Assembly: GCA_030431635.1 (NCBI GenBank)
Contig: JAUIIL010000004.1
Location: 1 to 64,000, forward strand
DNA length: 64,000 nucleotides
From: Bacteriovoracia bacterium
GTDB lineage: Bacteria; Bdellovibrionota; Bacteriovoracia; Bacteriovoracales; Bacteriovoracaceae
Direction of reading: 5' to 3'
Of the stretch, positions 18,603 to 25,364 are shown in pieces. Numbering within the stretch: position 1 is the stretch's first letter; the number at the start of each line of letters is the position of its first letter. Below the pieces are notes generated by a model, which was not told the origin of the DNA, ran no database searches, and saw only the letters and a program-made list of their open reading frames with translations. A program made the translations under genes and the position numbers.

Positions 18603-19646
18603 CTAGTACGTAAGGTTTTCGTGAACCCATTGAACTGTTTTTCTCACATTTTCTTCGGGGGTTTCTATTGTCACTCCGTGTCCTAGACCAAAGATATGTC
18701 TTGAAAAATCAAAATTGTTTTTAATGAGGTGCTCTTTATACTCTTCAAGATTGGCCTTGAGATTCTCCCAAGGAAGATGAAGCCAAATAGGATCGATATT
18801 TCCTTGAATATATTTATCTCTAGGGAGAAGCTTTTGAGTGTGAGCAATATCATGCCGCCAATCAACTCCAAAAACATCAATACGGCTTTCAAAAAGTGGT
18901 TCAAGATAATGAGGGTGAGTAAACTTTGAATAATAGATAATTTTTTTCTCTGGATAAGAGTTTTTAAAAGCATCAACCATTTTTAGAATATAGGGCGTAA
19001 TATAGCGTTGATAATCAAAGGAGCTGAGTTCTCCTGCCGCTGTATCAAATAAGCAAATGGCCTGAGCCCCTCCTTCAGCTTGAATGAGCATTTCAGAAAT
19101 AACATCTGGAAGAAGTTTTTGCATGAAAGCATCAAACCTTCCATCATATAATCCTTTCTTGGAGCTTACAAGATTACCTTTATGAGCTCCTTCAGCTGCA
19201 TAAGTATAGAGAGTAAAAGGAGCTCCTACAAAACCCAGGAGAGTCACATCTTTAGGAAGAGATTGCTTTAATAAAGAGCAGGCTTCTTTTTGAAATGAGT
19301 AAAACTCAGTTGAAGGTTTGAGCATTTTAAGTTGTTCGATACTTTCTTGAGAATCAATATACCTCTCAAGAGTAGGAGGGCCACTATGATAAGAAAGCCC
19401 TAGCCCCAGGTTTTCCAAAGGAAAAAGGAGGTCTGAGAATAAAATGGCCGCATCAAAATGAAAATCTTCAATAGGGCCCAAAGTCACCTGGCAAGCAAGT
19501 TCAGGGCTTTTACACATACTCATAAAATCAGAATTCTTTTTAATGTTTTGGTAGTGTTGATGATAGCGACCAGCTTGTCTCATAAACCAAACAGGGACTC
19601 TGGTTTTATTGTTAATGCTTTTTCTTTGAGAAAAAATATCGTTCAT
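18603..19646 (-). CDS. hemE: Uroporphyrinogen III decarboxylase
   Basis: This enzyme decarboxylates the four acetate side chains of uroporphyrinogen III to give coproporphyrinogen III, in the cytoplasm. The 347-aa length is normal. Signatures are RVPVWFMRQAGRYHQHYQ near residue 17 (substrate-binding Arg), FSDLLFPLENLGLGLSY with the conserved Asp, GFVGAPFTLYTYAAEG, and the C-terminal FGLGHGVTIETPEENV. It is the last heme gene of the operon and starts 4 bp inside the response-regulator gene. Confidence 0.97.
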   Translation of the reverse strand: MNDIFSQRKSINNKTRVPVWFMRQAGRYHQHYQNIKKNSDFMSMCKSPELACQVTLGPIEDFHFDAAILFSDLLFPLENLGLGLSYHSGPPTLERYIDSQESIEQLKMLKPSTEFYSFQKEACSLLKQSLPKDVTLLGFVGAPFTLYTYAAEGAHKGNLVSSKKGLYDGRFDAFMQKLLPDVISEMLIQAEGGAQAICLFDTAAGELSSFDYQRYITPYILKMVDAFKNSYPEKKIIYYSKFTHPHYLEPLFESRIDVFGVDWRHDIAHTQKLLPRDKYIQGNIDPIWLHLPWENLKANLEEYKEHLIKNNFDFSRHIFGLGHGVTIETPEENVRKTVQWVHENLTY

Positions 19647-20341
19647 ACAGATTGCCTCACTTCTAGTTTATAACCAATCCCTCTTACAGAGGAAATTGTC
19701 ATATGTTTTTGCGGGTCGGTTTCAGCCCACTTTCTTAGTTTTACAATATAGTTATCAACAGTTCGACTAGAGGGGAAAGAGTCCTGCCCCCAAATTTGGT
19801 CAATAATTTTATCTCTACTCACAACTTCAGATTGAGCATCAATCAAAAGTTTTAAAATCCCACACTCTTTTTGCGAAAGAGAAATGATTTTTCCGTTCGC
19901 ATCTTGAACTTCAAAGCGTTTAGGCCAAGCTTTAAGAGGGCCAAAGCTGTACTCATCCTCTGTTGTTTGAGTGTACTGCATAATTCTCTCTAGTCTTAGA
20001 GTGAGCTCTTTTAAAGCAAAAGGTTTCGTAATGTAGTCCTCGGCCCCGAGTTCTAAACCAGAAAGTTTGACTTCCGGATCGTTTAAAGCAGATAAAAATA
20101 ATAAAACAAAGTCTTTTCTCTTTTCTCTTAAGTTCTTTGCTAGCTCAATCCCATTGCCATCAGGTAGTCCAATATCCATGAGAACGACTTGAGGGTGAAA
20201 TTGTTGAAAAATACTTTTGGCTTGGTACATGGATTCAGCAAGTTTGCAGTCATGTCCCTTATCAACAAGAAACTCTTGAAGAGTTTGTCCTAAACTAGGT
20301 TCATCTTCGACAATAAGAATTTTATTTTTAGCTATTTTCAT
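19643..20341 (-). CDS. OmpR-family response regulator in the heme operon
   Basis: This 232-aa regulator has a receiver domain at residues 6-120, acidic pocket EDE, phospho-acceptor Asp56 in VVLMDIGLPDG, and the conserved Lys in AEDYITKPF. A winged-helix OmpR-type DNA-binding domain fills residues about 135-230 (LSQKECGILKLLI, VDNYIVKLRKW, ISSVRGIGYKLE). It overlaps the histidine kinase upstream by 14 bp and hemE downstream by 4 bp, so it is made together with heme enzymes. Its target genes are unknown; control of the same operon is the obvious guess. Confidence 0.93.
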   Translation of the reverse strand: MKIAKNKILIVEDEPSLGQTLQEFLVDKGHDCKLAESMYQAKSIFQQFHPQVVLMDIGLPDGNGIELAKNLREKRKDFVLLFLSALNDPEVKLSGLELGAEDYITKPFALKELTLRLERIMQYTQTTEDEYSFGPLKAWPKRFEVQDANGKIISLSQKECGILKLLIDAQSEVVSRDKIIDQIWGQDSFPSSRTVDNYIVKLRKWAETDPQKHMTISSVRGIGYKLEVRQSV

Positions 20342-21248
20342 ATCTCTTAAAAATCATTTTAAAAATAAGCCTTTTCTGGCTTAGTTCATCGTTTATAAGC
20401 AAAAAATGAAGGGCTCCATGCATTTTCTTCATTAATTTTTGACTTAAGTATAAACCAATTCCTGTCCCTTTACCTGTTCCTGATTTATAAAAAAGATGTC
20501 CTAGTTTCTGAGGATCTCCACTAAACTCTTTTCCTCCATCATCATAATGAAGTTCAATTTTATTTTGTTTTTGAATAAGCTTGATTTTAATTGTGGCCTC
20601 TGGAGAGTTATGGCGTTTTGTATTTTCAAAGAAGTTTCGTAAAATAACTTCCAGGGCATTCTCTTCCGCAAGAACAATTGGTTGGGCCCCTTGGGTTGAG
20701 AGCTCAATTTTTCCTTGGAAATGGTAAGTTTGAGCAAATTTTTTGATAAAACGTTCCATATCAATAGAGCGCAAAATAAGGTTACCATCTCTTTCTAAAC
20801 GGGCGAGCTGTAAACTTTTTTCTAGTTCCCCTTCTAATCTTTGGGTTCCTTCAATTAGGCGAGTTGTTAGCTGAGAGAGCCTTTCATTATCTTGAGCGAT
20901 ATCGGAAATCACTTCAGCTTGTAAGCGGATACTGGCCAGAGGCGTTTTTAGTTCATGAGTAAGAGAGGCAAAAAAGGTTTGAATAGATTTGGCCTTTCTA
21001 ATATCTTTTAAATAAAAATATAACAGAAGAGAACTTACAACCAAGATTAAAAGAAAAAAAGTAAGTCCTTCGTACTTAACGAGGTTCACAAATTCCATTC
21101 CCCCTAAAGGGTGAGGGGCATTAATCTGTTTAAGAGTTTTTCCTAGTTGTAAAACAAGATAAAGCCACCAAACTCCTAAACCAAGGATAAGGGAGATTAA
21201 TAATGCGGTCAGAGCAAATATCCACTTGCTTGTTTTATTTAGCTCCAT
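20328..21248 (-). CDS. Sensor histidine kinase in the heme operon
   Basis: This 306-aa inner-membrane kinase has two transmembrane helices (about residues 9-34 and 60-80) flanking a periplasmic loop of only about 25 residues, so it has no real extracellular sensor domain. The phospho-acceptor is His98 in FFASLTHELKTPLASIRLQ. The ATPase has an N box (LRNFFENTKRHNSP) and a G box (GTGKGTGIGLYLSQKLM). No HAMP or PAS domain is evident. It overlaps hemL by 10 bp and its cognate regulator by 14 bp. A short loop suggests sensing in the membrane or through a partner. Confidence 0.92.
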   Translation of the reverse strand: MELNKTSKWIFALTALLISLILGLGVWWLYLVLQLGKTLKQINAPHPLGGMEFVNLVKYEGLTFFLLILVVSSLLLYFYLKDIRKAKSIQTFFASLTHELKTPLASIRLQAEVISDIAQDNERLSQLTTRLIEGTQRLEGELEKSLQLARLERDGNLILRSIDMERFIKKFAQTYHFQGKIELSTQGAQPIVLAEENALEVILRNFFENTKRHNSPEATIKIKLIQKQNKIELHYDDGGKEFSGDPQKLGHLFYKSGTGKGTGIGLYLSQKLMKKMHGALHFLLINDELSQKRLIFKMIFKRYENS

Positions 21249-22498
21249 AGCCTCTTTTCAAACTCCTGCACAACCTCATCGTCATGGGCCGCACTCACGA
21301 AACTAATTTCATAAGCATTAGGGGAGAGATAAATTCCTTTCTCAAGTAAAATTTCAAAAAGCTTAGAGAAACGTTGGCCAATGTGCTCAGGTATCTCTTG
21401 CTCAGACTTTAGTTTTTTTGTAGCAGGAACTTGCCAAAACAAAGAAGCTTTTTGAAGAATTTGATAATCCTCAAAACCATTTTCATTTAACCATTTTTGG
21501 AAAATCGTTGTTATTTTTTTTGTTTGAGTTTCAAGCTGAGAGTAAAAATCCTCTGTTAGTAATTTTACGTTGGCAAGACCCGCGGCCATTGCAACAGGGT
21601 TCGCACTTAAAGTTCCTGCTTGGTAAACTCCTCCAACAGGAGCGAGCATTTGCATAATTTCTTTTCTGGCCGCAACAGCTCCAACAGGCATGCCTCCTCC
21701 TATGACTTTTCCATAGGTCACAATATCTGGAGTAATTCCTAAGTACTCACTCATACCACCAAAGCCTATTCTAAATCCCGAAATGACTTCATCAAAAAGT
21801 AGTAGGCTTTCATGTTTTTTGGTTATGTCTCTGAGGAATTGAAGAAATTCTTTGTCTTGTTCAAGTAAACCATTATTGGCCGGTAGAGGTTCAATACCAA
21901 CAAGAGCAATATCATCTCCAAATTCAGCGAAAATTTTCTCGACCGCCTCTTTATCATTGAGCTGGCACGTAAGAGTCTCACTTGTCGTTTGTTCTGTAAC
22001 TCCTAAAGAAGAAGCCGCAGTGACTCCGGCCAAGCCTGAACCTGCTTTAATGAGTAAAGAATCTAAGTGGCCATGATAACAACCCACAAACTTAAGAACT
22101 TTACTCTTACCTGTAAATCCTCGAGCAAGTCTTACTGCTGTCATGACAGCTTCTGTTCCAGAATTAAGGAAGCGGATCTGATCGATAAAAGAAATTCGAG
22201 AGCAAATATACTCAGCGAGCTCTAGGGAGTAGGGTTCACAAGCTCCGTAGCTCCATCCATTTTCAACAGCTTCTTTAATGGCCTTCTCAACTTGAGGAGA
22301 ACGGTGTCCATGAATAAGTGGCCCAAAGCTCATACAAAAATCGATATAATTTTTTCCATCGACATCATACAGGTAAGCCCCATTGGCCCTTTTTATAAAG
22401 CGTGGTGTTGTGTGAAGCCCTTTAAAGCTTCTGACGGGAGAGTGAACCCCTCCTGGTACAAACTGGAGAGATTTTTCAAAAAGTTGTTCCGAGTTCAT
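21239..22498 (-). CDS. hemL: Glutamate-1-semialdehyde 2,1-aminomutase
   Basis: This PLP enzyme converts glutamate-1-semialdehyde to 5-aminolevulinate, the second step of the C5 pathway. The 419-aa length is normal. It has FVPGGVHSPVRSFKG at the N-terminus (canonical PGGVNSPVRAF), NSGTEAVMTAVRLARGFTGK, LLFDEVISGFRIG, and the PLP-lysine loop TYGKVIGGGMPVGAVA. It lies 5 bp downstream of hemC in the heme operon and together with hemA confirms C5-type ALA synthesis. Confidence 0.97.
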   Translation of the reverse strand: MNSEQLFEKSLQFVPGGVHSPVRSFKGLHTTPRFIKRANGAYLYDVDGKNYIDFCMSFGPLIHGHRSPQVEKAIKEAVENGWSYGACEPYSLELAEYICSRISFIDQIRFLNSGTEAVMTAVRLARGFTGKSKVLKFVGCYHGHLDSLLIKAGSGLAGVTAASSLGVTEQTTSETLTCQLNDKEAVEKIFAEFGDDIALVGIEPLPANNGLLEQDKEFLQFLRDITKKHESLLLFDEVISGFRIGFGGMSEYLGITPDIVTYGKVIGGGMPVGAVAARKEIMQMLAPVGGVYQAGTLSANPVAMAAGLANVKLLTEDFYSQLETQTKKITTIFQKWLNENGFEDYQILQKASLFWQVPATKKLKSEQEIPEHIGQRFSKLFEILLEKGIYLSPNAYEISFVSAAHDDEVVQEFEKRLWS

Positions 22499-22503
22499 AA
22501 GAC

Positions 22504-24057
22504 CTACTTAAAAAGTGATTGCCAGTAAACCATATCTACAATTGGTATTACTTCTATCTTATTCTGAACAAATTGTTCAAGAGTTTTTCCTGCGCCACAA
22601 CAGTGGATAACCCCTTCTAAATCCTTGATATGAGATTGATAGAGAGAATATTGGTAAAAACTCGTCCAGAAAAACACTTTAACCTGAGAGAGTTTTTGAA
22701 GAAATTCCTCTGAAGCACTGCCTACAACTCGTTGGTAGGACTCAATAATTTCTCCCACATCACTTTGAGAGTCTTTATGAGAGAGGACATTCCATTTCTT
22801 TTTTTGAAAGAAGAGATCAAGAAGAGAGCTCTGTTTAAAGTCAAGAATCTGTTGATGCCCGAATGAATCACTACTGCCGTTAACCCATATTTTTTTCTTT
22901 GCTAGGGTCTTCCATGTTTTATTTCCTGAGCTAAAAGTATAACCACTCGGATTATCGTAATTCTCGCAACTATAGGTAGAAGTCACAAATGAGCAGATTC
23001 CTTTCTCAAGCTTAAAAGAAAGAGCTTTCTTGTGAAGGAGCTCATCATAAACAAAGTTTTTCTTGTTTTGCATCTTTTGAGCACTCAGACCAATGAAAAC
23101 ATTTTGCTGAGAGATATGTTGAAACATGTCCTCTAGTTTTTGATGAGTGAGATAGCGTTTTTGAATCTTATTTTCCTCATGCTCTCCCTTAAGACAAATA
23201 AAATGCTCTTTTTGAAATTTTTTAGCATGAATCCCTACAGCAAGGTGACACCCACCTCCAAAGGATTGAAACAGCTCTCTTTCAATCTGAACGGTCTCTG
23301 CGGTTTCAGCATCGTGGATATGACTCAAAATCTGAATAAGTTCTTGGTTTGATTCTAAACACTCGATACCTAGTGCTCCTTGAGAAGCAGCTGAAGGGAA
23401 CTGACTTTGGGGGAGAATCATAAAATTGAGTCCCTTAAGTAGCTCTTTCAATTTTGCTTTTGATTCATTTAGCTGGCATAGCCTTTCAAGACCAGCAAAA
23501 GCCAGAACAATGGCGTGGTATTTATCGTCTTGCAATTTTTGAATACGAGTATTAACGTTCCCTCTGAGCATTTCACATCGAACACTTAGTTTTTCATTCG
23601 CTGGTAGGTAGTCTTTGAGAGAGGATTCAATGTTCGTGATTCTACGTGGAGAGCTTGTTCCTACCACAAAATCTTCAAGCTCATTAAACTTCTCAATCGT
23701 TTTCTCTTTAATAAGAAGGATGTCATGGGAGAAGCTTCGCTGAGTAATAGCAGCGAGAGTGATACCTTGAGGCCTTATACTACCTAAGTCTTTGTAAGAA
23801 TGGATAACAAGATCGATTTCTTTTTTTAAAAGAGCTTCATCAAGTTCCTTGGTAAAAAAATCTTTGCCATCATATTGCCATAAAGGTTTATCTGTTTGGA
23901 CATCACCTTGAGTCTTGATTGTCTTGATGGTGAAACTTTTGCCTGTTTTTTGCTCAAGCAAATTCTTCGTTATTGTAGACTGGGTTACAGCAAGAAGACT
24001 TCCTCTGGTACCGATAATGTAATCAGCTTGAGGCAAGTTGGAGTCCTTTAATTTCAA
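22504..24057 (-). CDS. hemC: Hydroxymethylbilane synthase with diverged HemD-like C-terminal domain
   Basis: The first 300 residues are porphobilinogen deaminase: IIGTRGSLLAVTQS at residue 14, catalytic Asp90 in VIHSYKDLGS, VGTSSPRR, and the dipyrromethane-cofactor Cys270 in SFGGGCHLAVG. Normal HemC has about 310 residues; this protein has 517. The extra part (about 350-517) has an uroporphyrinogen III synthase look: the segment VVGSASEEFLQKL, then FFWTSFYQYSLY and a closing HCCGAGKTLEQFVQNKIEVIPI, which parallels the HemD 'vGp.Ta.al...G..v.vvp' end. No separate hemD is seen in the operon. The start overlaps hemA by 35 bp; an internal TTG start would cut this to about 14 bp. Confidence 0.9.
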   Translation of the reverse strand: MKLKDSNLPQADYIIGTRGSLLAVTQSTITKNLLEQKTGKSFTIKTIKTQGDVQTDKPLWQYDGKDFFTKELDEALLKKEIDLVIHSYKDLGSIRPQGITLAAITQRSFSHDILLIKEKTIEKFNELEDFVVGTSSPRRITNIESSLKDYLPANEKLSVRCEMLRGNVNTRIQKLQDDKYHAIVLAFAGLERLCQLNESKAKLKELLKGLNFMILPQSQFPSAASQGALGIECLESNQELIQILSHIHDAETAETVQIERELFQSFGGGCHLAVGIHAKKFQKEHFICLKGEHEENKIQKRYLTHQKLEDMFQHISQQNVFIGLSAQKMQNKKNFVYDELLHKKALSFKLEKGICSFVTSTYSCENYDNPSGYTFSSGNKTWKTLAKKKIWVNGSSDSFGHQQILDFKQSSLLDLFFQKKKWNVLSHKDSQSDVGEIIESYQRVVGSASEEFLQKLSQVKVFFWTSFYQYSLYQSHIKDLEGVIHCCGAGKTLEQFVQNKIEVIPIVDMVYWQSLFK

Positions 24058-24940
24058 TTTTCTTAAGAAGTGAAGAGCGCTTTTCTACAATCGAATCAAT
24101 GGCCTCTGTTGCCTTCTTGATTTTACTTCTCTTGTCTTTTTCATGAACAGCACCTTCATCAAAAATATTTTCAAGGCGATAAAGGCCATCTTCTTGAGAA
24201 AGAGAAGAATGAACTACGGAAGGAGAACCTAAATCAATAAAAGCTTTATGCTCTTTGTTATTTGAACTCCATTTGGTAAAAAAATCAGGTTGAAATAATT
24301 GAATATTGGCCCCAATGGTATTAGCGATATGAGAAAATTTGGCGTAAAGATCAAAATGCATCCAAGGGAGAGACTCAAGCGAGTGGGTCTCACATAACTC
24401 TCTCACTCTTTGAGTGTTTCTGGCGCTGATATAAATAGGACATTTCTTTTTGAGTTGATTAATAAGATCTTCGGCCAAGTTACCAGAGCCAATAATGAGC
24501 ACACAATCAGCCTTGTGCTGTTGTATGAGAATTTTGCGAGTAATTGATGAGTATGTTTTTTGAGAAATTCCAATTAAGTAGCGGCTTCTAATTTCTTTCG
24601 AGTCTTTGAAGAGTTTTTCTAAGACCCTCATCAATCGAGAGTTTCTTTGATTTTTTTCAATATAGTCTTTATAAGCACATTTAAATTGGGAGACGATTTC
24701 ATTTTCTCCCAAGAGTTTACTTTTAAGACCACAGATTGTTTCAAGCAGGAAACAATAAGCGTTCTCTCCTCTGTGAGATTCGTACTTATGCTTAAGTTGA
24801 ATATTCTCGAATGGATCACAATCATAACTTAAAACGAGTGTTCTCTGGCAGGTTTTGAGAACAAAACTCTGAGAGAGTTCACATTGACCTAAGAATTCAA
24901 AGTCATTTGAAAAATTGTAGAGATGCAGTTTGTCTAACAT
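24023..24940 (-). CDS. hemA: Glutamyl-tRNA reductase, short form
   Basis: This NADPH-dependent enzyme reduces glutamyl-tRNA to glutamate-1-semialdehyde. The catalytic cysteine is Cys31 in LKTCQRT (canonical STCNRTE), and GLKSKLLGENEIVSQFKCAY matches the GLDSmvlGE.qIlgQvK.Ay core. A Rossmann-type segment CVLIIGSGNLAEDLI follows. At 305 aa it is well below the usual 410-430: the N-terminal 'NHKTAP..vRE' part is reduced and the C-terminal dimerisation helices are cut to about 45 residues. The ORF is intact, has a matching operon and overlaps hemC by 35 bp, so it is more likely a streamlined enzyme than a pseudogene. No Shine-Dalgarno site. Confidence 0.88.
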   Translation of the reverse strand: MLDKLHLYNFSNDFEFLGQCELSQSFVLKTCQRTLVLSYDCDPFENIQLKHKYESHRGENAYCFLLETICGLKSKLLGENEIVSQFKCAYKDYIEKNQRNSRLMRVLEKLFKDSKEIRSRYLIGISQKTYSSITRKILIQQHKADCVLIIGSGNLAEDLINQLKKKCPIYISARNTQRVRELCETHSLESLPWMHFDLYAKFSHIANTIGANIQLFQPDFFTKWSSNNKEHKAFIDLGSPSVVHSSLSQEDGLYRLENIFDEGAVHEKDKRSKIKKATEAIDSIVEKRSSLLKKIEIKGLQLASS

Positions 24941-24948
24941 TTGTTGTT

Positions 24949-24954
24949 ATTTTA
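24949..24954 (-). promoter_or_regulatory. Candidate -10 box of the heme operon, leaderless start
   Basis: On the minus strand TAAAAT ends 8 nt before the hemA ATG, and no ribosome-binding site is present. A transcript beginning at the usual distance would start within one or two bases of the start codon. No clear -35 hexamer at 16-18 bp. Confidence 0.35.
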
Positions 24955-25021
24955 AGCACAAGTTCTTGAAAAAGTGTCATAAAAATGTAGAAAAACCTAA
25001 ATTCTTCTTAAGAACCCTGGA

Positions 25022-25058: not shown

Positions 25059-25364
25059 ATGACTCATAAAGCCACTTCTTCAGTAAATATACTGGCCAAA
25101 ACATTTCTAGGTGTTTTTGGGGCCATAAAAAATCTTTTCTTGCGCTTTGATAGGAAAGTAGAGGGAGCTGCGAGCTTTTTCTTCCGCCATTACGGAAAAT
25201 CAAGGTTTATGATTGCGATGTCAAAAAAGGCACAAGTTTTAGGGATTGAGAAGCTCTTTCTTAAAAGCCCTAAAGCTTTTGTTTACTTTTTCCTCTTCTA
25301 TTTGATAAGGGATACCATCCTTTATATTGTTTTACCGATTTATTTTGCTTCGCTGACAAATTAA
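25059..25364 (+). CDS. Small membrane-associated hypothetical protein, 101 aa
   Basis: No family recognised. A basic, amphipathic N-terminal 75 residues (ILAKTFLGVFGAIKNLFLRFDRK and SRFMIAMSKKAQ) is followed by one strongly hydrophobic segment near the C-terminus (FVYFFLFYLIRDTILYIVLPIYF). It would sit as a C-terminally anchored inner-membrane protein. It lies 28 bp upstream of the Na/phosphate cotransporter gene in the same direction, and divergent from hemA. Confidence 0.6.
   Translation: MTHKATSSVNILAKTFLGVFGAIKNLFLRFDRKVEGAASFFFRHYGKSRFMIAMSKKAQVLGIEKLFLKSPKAFVYFFLFYLIRDTILYIVLPIYFASLTN

Follow-up and report, generated by a model that had tools for sequence, protein, structure and literature searches.

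Two-component systems linking gene expression with heme status are known from Corynebacterium (HrrSA, ChrSA) and from Gram-positives (HssRS), and the pair described here resembles them in this respect, though to our knowledge none of them is embedded in a heme operon as this pair is. HrrA and ChrA are moreover NarL-type regulators, whereas the regulator considered here is of the OmpR/PhoB type. The closest described system is HemKR of Leptospira (L. biflexa and L. interrogans), on which Morero et al. are said to have reported in 2014. In L. interrogans the HemKR genes (Hklep/Rrlep) are located between hemL and hemE, and Leptospira mutants in the system require heme or 5-aminolevulinate (ALA) (PMC2266917). 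Since a linkage in Bdellovibrio was mentioned in the same 2008 work, data not shown, an arrangement of the kind analysed here was already known (PMC2266917). Phosphorylated HemR of Leptospira binds the hem-box, TGACA-N6-TGACA, upstream of hemA and activates that gene, and ALA turns HemK to a phosphatase, a switch that needs T102, giving a feedback loop (PMC11426443). Further targets in Leptospira are heme oxygenase, which is repressed, and exbBD, which is activated; iron limitation and peroxide also change the regulon, and in a double mutant hemA transcription is not lowered, other regulators also acting. HemKR has been studied so far in Leptospira alone, and both the signal (ALA or a later porphyrin) and the part of the kinase that senses it are questions there.

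Gene content of the operon and identity of the pair

In the window (the whole stretch of 64,000 nucleotides that was analysed), open reading frames and Pfam and NCBIfam matches give six genes in the order hemA-hemC-hemL-kinase-regulator-hemE, at 18603-24940 and all on the minus strand. The overlaps are 35 bp for hemA/hemC, which depends on a TTG start for hemC, 10 bp for hemL/kinase, 14 bp for kinase/regulator and 4 bp for regulator/hemE, while hemC and hemL are separated by a 5-bp gap, so that four of the five junctions overlap. The original prediction, made by a model from the DNA letters alone, had named this gene set, its place and its overlaps, all of which are confirmed, but had wrongly implied a further overlap at hemC/hemL.

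The first gene, hemA (24023..24940), encodes a short, 305-aa form of glutamyl-tRNA reductase (PF05201, PF01488; TIGR01035 below cut-off). HemA is similarly short (258-335 aa) in all operons of the HemKR type, those of Leptospiraceae and Acidobacteriota included, and in these operons the C-terminal dimerisation domain typical of glutamyl-tRNA reductases is not matched. Glutamate-1-semialdehyde aminomutase is encoded by hemL (21239..22498; NF000818 above cut-off) and uroporphyrinogen decarboxylase by hemE (18603..19646; PF01208). The 517-aa product of hemC (22504..24057, TTG start; TIGR00212, PF01379) has a confident structure model, the N-terminal part of which is porphobilinogen deaminase, and a fold search with HemC recovered this deaminase part alone. 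The C-terminal part (22504-23100) is a conserved extension without a Pfam match, the HEM4 domain included. A genome search found no second hemD in the source genome, and for this reason the extension probably represents a uroporphyrinogen III synthase (HemD) that has diverged strongly. The gene had been labelled "hemC(D)" beforehand, a name that holds for its first part and is likely for its second, even with no HEM4 match.

The kinase (20328..21248, 306 aa) is a HemK-type sensor histidine kinase with HisKA and HATPase_c domains, two transmembrane helices, H98 and T102, assigned also by conserved gene order. The regulator (19643..20341, 232 aa, with D56) is a HemR-type member of the OmpR/PhoB family, with Response_reg and Trans_reg_C domains, the latter an OmpR/PhoB-type and not a NarL-type DNA-binding domain. 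Among all PDB sequences, the best match to its receiver is PDB ID: 4q7e (3e-24 compared to 3e-20 for the next), which we take to be the receiver of L. biflexa HemR, and the best match of 4q7e in the source genome is in turn the window regulator. When 4q7e was used as a query against the named genome collection, it retrieved almost only heme-operon regulators, from Bdellovibrionota, Leptospiraceae and Acidobacteriota, and in a regulator tree the operon copies cluster, separate from most paralogs. Kinase identity between the window and Leptospiraceae is modest (26-31%). As in HemKR of Leptospira, a kinase and an OmpR/PhoB-type regulator lie between hemL and hemE (there in L. interrogans), the kinase has two transmembrane helices and a short loop preceded by two tryptophans, H98 and T102 fall at identical residue numbers, and a hem-box stands at hemA. 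Because gene place, the two-helix sensor, H98 and T102, receiver similarity and the hem-box upstream of hemA all agree, the pair matches HemKR. It is very probably the HemKR of the Bdellovibrionota lineage, holding the operon under negative feedback by the full mechanism proposed below.

The hem-box and the layout of the hemA promoter

We searched the 200-bp regions upstream of hemA at 62 loci holding the pair, with shuffled versions of them as a control. TGACA-N6-TGACA was found within two mismatches in 61 of these 62 promoters, which include close relatives and are not 62 independent cases: 39 are exact, 7 have one mismatch and 15 have two, with one promoter having none. Shuffled regions reach one mismatch in 0.8% and two or fewer in 7.6%, with no exact match. 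Among the exact boxes are those of Leptospiraceae (L089) and Acidobacteriota (L133-L135), and the hemA promoters of two genomes without the pair have no box. The 3′ half-site is invariant, and a second half-site (mostly TGACA, with ACA nearly invariant) lies exactly 11 bp upstream in essentially all, so that the search for a shared repeat near the hemA promoter, suggested with the original prediction, did find one.

The window box, CTACATTTTTATGACA (24975..24990, minus strand), is situated upstream of hemA at a position orthologous to that in 60 other hemA promoters, with a 5′ half-site derived from TGACA. Read as CTACA-N6-TGACA it has two mismatches, both in the 5′ half-site, and 15% of shuffles are as good; it is thus not significant alone, yet it stands at the conserved place. 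Unlike that of Leptospira, the 5′ half-site of the window's family is mostly CTACA (14/22, the rest being TGACA, TTACA or ATACA), and the recognition helix of the window regulator is likewise changed (Y198, K201, W205). A tight co-variation of box and helix within the family was considered and rejected, as two loci (L044, L048) keep TGACA together with the window's helix. In PhoB-type class II activation, a direct-repeat box with 11-bp spacing overlaps the -35 region, a layout that the hem-box shares, whereas target, signal and half-site (TGACA, not TGTCA) are different.

A predicted -10 element, TAAAAT (24949..24954, minus strand), lies 36 nt from the start of the box. Across the promoters, TAnnnT begins exactly 36 nt after the first box base in 41 of 61, compared to at most 7 at any other offset. 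The spacing between the second half-site and the -10 element is 20 nt, not the 17 nt of a -35 hexamer, which implies that the box stands in for the -35 element. A transcription start at the standard distance would be expected at offset 48. In 23/61 promoters the hemA start codon begins at exactly this base, and in 39/61 it lies at offsets 47-50; in the window the predicted start is at about 24942, 2 nt ahead of the hemA ATG at 24940. Since the two coincide, we predict that the hemA mRNA has no leader, or almost none. Leaderless mRNAs are common in L. interrogans. The box region is shared with a small uncharacterised protein of 101 aa encoded divergently from hemA (25059-25364, plus strand), which has no NCBIfam match and is 60-83% identical in about 17 relatives, making it better conserved than the hem proteins.

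Beyond hemA we found no target, save one unconfirmed site in one distant genome (G050, L158), where a divergent SCO1-like gene, for a cytochrome oxidase assembly factor, has an exact hem-box 62 bp ahead of it, a single case. There are 10 exact boxes in the source genome compared to 3 in the control, and YTACA-N6-TGACA occurs there at six sites, one of them at hemA, which is no more than in the control. A wider HemR regulon was rejected on the ground that most exact boxes in the source genome and six relatives fall within genes or next to genes of unrelated function. In a possible further difference from Leptospira, no heme oxygenase or exbBD gene lies beside the exact boxes of the source genome. 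The window lineage also differs in having hemB outside the operon, and hemB promoters located there have no box, two matches (G041, G007) being the shared hemA-hemB spacer. Elsewhere in the source genome (C3:351186-351212, L080), three tandem TGACA half-sites repeat at intervals of 11 bp, flanked by a UmuD-like gene and a small lipoprotein-like gene, possibly a site of HemR or of another OmpR-family regulator.

Conservation and loss of the pair with heme synthesis

Nearly all heme-making genera in the window's family have the full order hemA-hemC-hemL-kinase-regulator-hemE, and the operon order recurs in about 33 further genomes of the phylum sample (Bdellovibrionota). In five families of the same phylum (f3, f6, f8, f11, f12) the kinase and regulator adjoin hemL and/or hemE, and with the HemR-like receiver as a query the order hemL-kinase-regulator-hemE also appears at named loci of Leptospiraceae and some Acidobacteriota. 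Recurrence on this scale, in about 33 genomes of that sample and at named loci of three phyla, shows that the placement of the pair in the heme operon is not a chance neighbourhood. The original prediction had suggested this comparison and had held that absence of the pair from the heme operons of all close relatives would count against it; the pair sits in the operon of nearly all of those that make heme.

Of 37 genomes sampled from the family, both hemL and the kinase occur in 27 and neither occurs in 7; another 3 contain hemL but lack the kinase, and in no genome does the kinase occur without hemL. The kinase is thus present in 27/30 heme-making compared to 0/7 non-heme-making genomes (Fisher p 1e-5). 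In one of the three exceptions (G017, G019 and G024), G017, hemL runs straight into hemE. A different situation is seen in G007 (L065), which is of the window's family by grouping, yet has a hem operon, hemB neighbour and box entirely of the other (Bdellovibrionia) type, a possible case of replacement by transfer. In trees, the Leptospiraceae and Acidobacteriota copies fall among those of Bdellovibrionota, though a topology with these copies grouped outside Bdellovibrionota is not rejected by an AU test (p 0.35). Transfer between phyla, in either direction, is therefore no more than a possible reading, as the test does not force this placement.

Candidate signal input, proposed mechanism and rival explanations

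The window kinase has a short loop between its two predicted transmembrane helices (roughly residues 33-54), which bears out the very short periplasmic loop noted originally. Among 81 kinases from three phyla, W27 (80/81) and W28 (77/81) at the outer end of the first helix (codons 21165..21170, minus strand), E60 (80/81) at the outer start of the second (21069..21071, minus strand) and the adjacent G61 (74/81) are conserved to the same degree as the phosphoacceptor H98 (81/81; 20955..20957, minus strand) and T102 (80/81), whereas the loop differs greatly in both length and sequence. In a 28-row kinase alignment W27, W28 and E60 are the sole invariant sensor residues, and the sensor part has no PAS, GAF, or conserved Cys or His ligand motif, nor is any sensor domain recognised in HemK. 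The sequence VWWWILG, immediately ahead of the loop, is encoded by a published L. biflexa primer. A published swap of the HemK loop (F31-S62, with the E60 equivalent within it by coordinates) still restored growth; this assay reports kinase activity, the ON state, and not shutdown, and soluble HemK without its membrane part is locked as a kinase. Given this, and the invariance of the three residues, we propose W27-W28/E60 as a candidate input site for the OFF signal.

By analogy with Leptospira, phosphotransfer, box binding, hemA activation and ALA-triggered shutdown would operate in the window organism as follows. HemK, held by two transmembrane helices, would phosphorylate HemR by default. 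Phospho-HemR would then bind as a tandem dimer to the two 5-bp half-sites of the hem-box, 11 bp apart and replacing the -35 element, and recruit RNA polymerase to the fixed -10 of the hemA promoter. The mRNA would start at or within about 2 bases of the hemA start codon and span hemA-hemC(D)-hemL-hemK-hemR-hemE, and as it includes hemK and hemR, the pair would probably drive its own synthesis. When ALA or a later porphyrin builds up, the membrane part of HemK (with W27-W28/E60 as the candidate site) would switch it to a phosphatase via T102; HemR would lose its phosphate and operon expression would fall. The core of the original suggestion, sensing of a heme precursor or product with feedback on the operon, is supported by this comparison, such feedback having been shown for the orthologous HemKR of Leptospira (PMC11426443).

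Alternatively, the pair could be an unrelated PhoBR/CreBC-like system, carried in the operon for its expression level and having targets elsewhere (envelope, phosphate, respiration). The best NCBIfam scores of the pair are to PhoB/CreC-type models, all far below cut-off, the hem-box is laid out like a PhoB-family box with its 11-bp direct repeat, and a Na/Pi-type transporter gene lies divergent nearby. However, the hemA box is conserved with the pair and lost with it, the kinase is absent where heme synthesis is absent, the receiver is closest to the HemR-like 4q7e and the very few other exact box sites are mostly inside genes, which makes an unrelated system very improbable. It is scarcely credible that the conserved TGACA is a mere -35 hexamer of a sigma-70 promoter, with no regulator box, considering the 20-nt and not 17-nt distance to the -10, the half-site exactly 11 bp upstream in essentially all promoters and the loss of the box where the pair is lost, even though TGACA is contained in TTGACA and the 3′ half-site is invariant.

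The signal itself could be oxygen, redox state or iron and not a porphyrin precursor, with the pair fitting heme supply to respiratory demand. The effects of iron limitation and peroxide on the Leptospira regulon, and the hem-box-like site before the SCO1-like gene of one distant genome, would fit such a role. We nevertheless consider it unlikely, as the kinase has no conserved PAS, GAF or Cys/His ligand motif, the invariant W, W and E are not metal or flavin ligands, and in Leptospira it is ALA that triggers shutdown through the HemK phosphatase. Redox sensing and feedback on respiration had been offered as alternatives in the original prediction, and no support was found for them.

Feedback through HemKR could be taken further, to a self-contained cross-phylum cassette. 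In this reading W27, W28 and E60 would allow HemK, which has no sensor domain, to detect a porphyrin precursor at the cytoplasmic membrane's outer edge, and HemR, acting through the fixed geometry of the promoter, would drive a hemA mRNA that has no leader. The kinase with the published loop swap could then have become insensitive to the signal for shutdown. We advance this extended reading tentatively, giving it somewhat less than an even chance. A literature search of limited coverage found no earlier description of the box across phyla, of the fixed layout of the promoter or of the invariant residues in the sensor, all of which thus appear new. As HemKR, box and promoter geometry persist across Bdellovibrionota, Leptospiraceae and some Acidobacteriota, they offer three invariant residues as targets for mutation and a promoter that is clean and tractable, and HemKR gives an account of how heme synthesis is probably controlled in predatory bacteria and their relatives.

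A separate observation concerns hemH. Outside the window, from C4:267708 onward in the source genome (L223:1480-3867), ferrochelatase (HemH) is fused to an MFS transporter in a protein of 795 aa, and about 20 genera of the family seem to have the same fusion, judging by the length of their open frames at hemH (about 790-880 aa). Unfused hemH is found in G007 and in the three genomes that lost HemKR (G017, G019, G024). The fusion is a candidate for a coupled heme maker and exporter.
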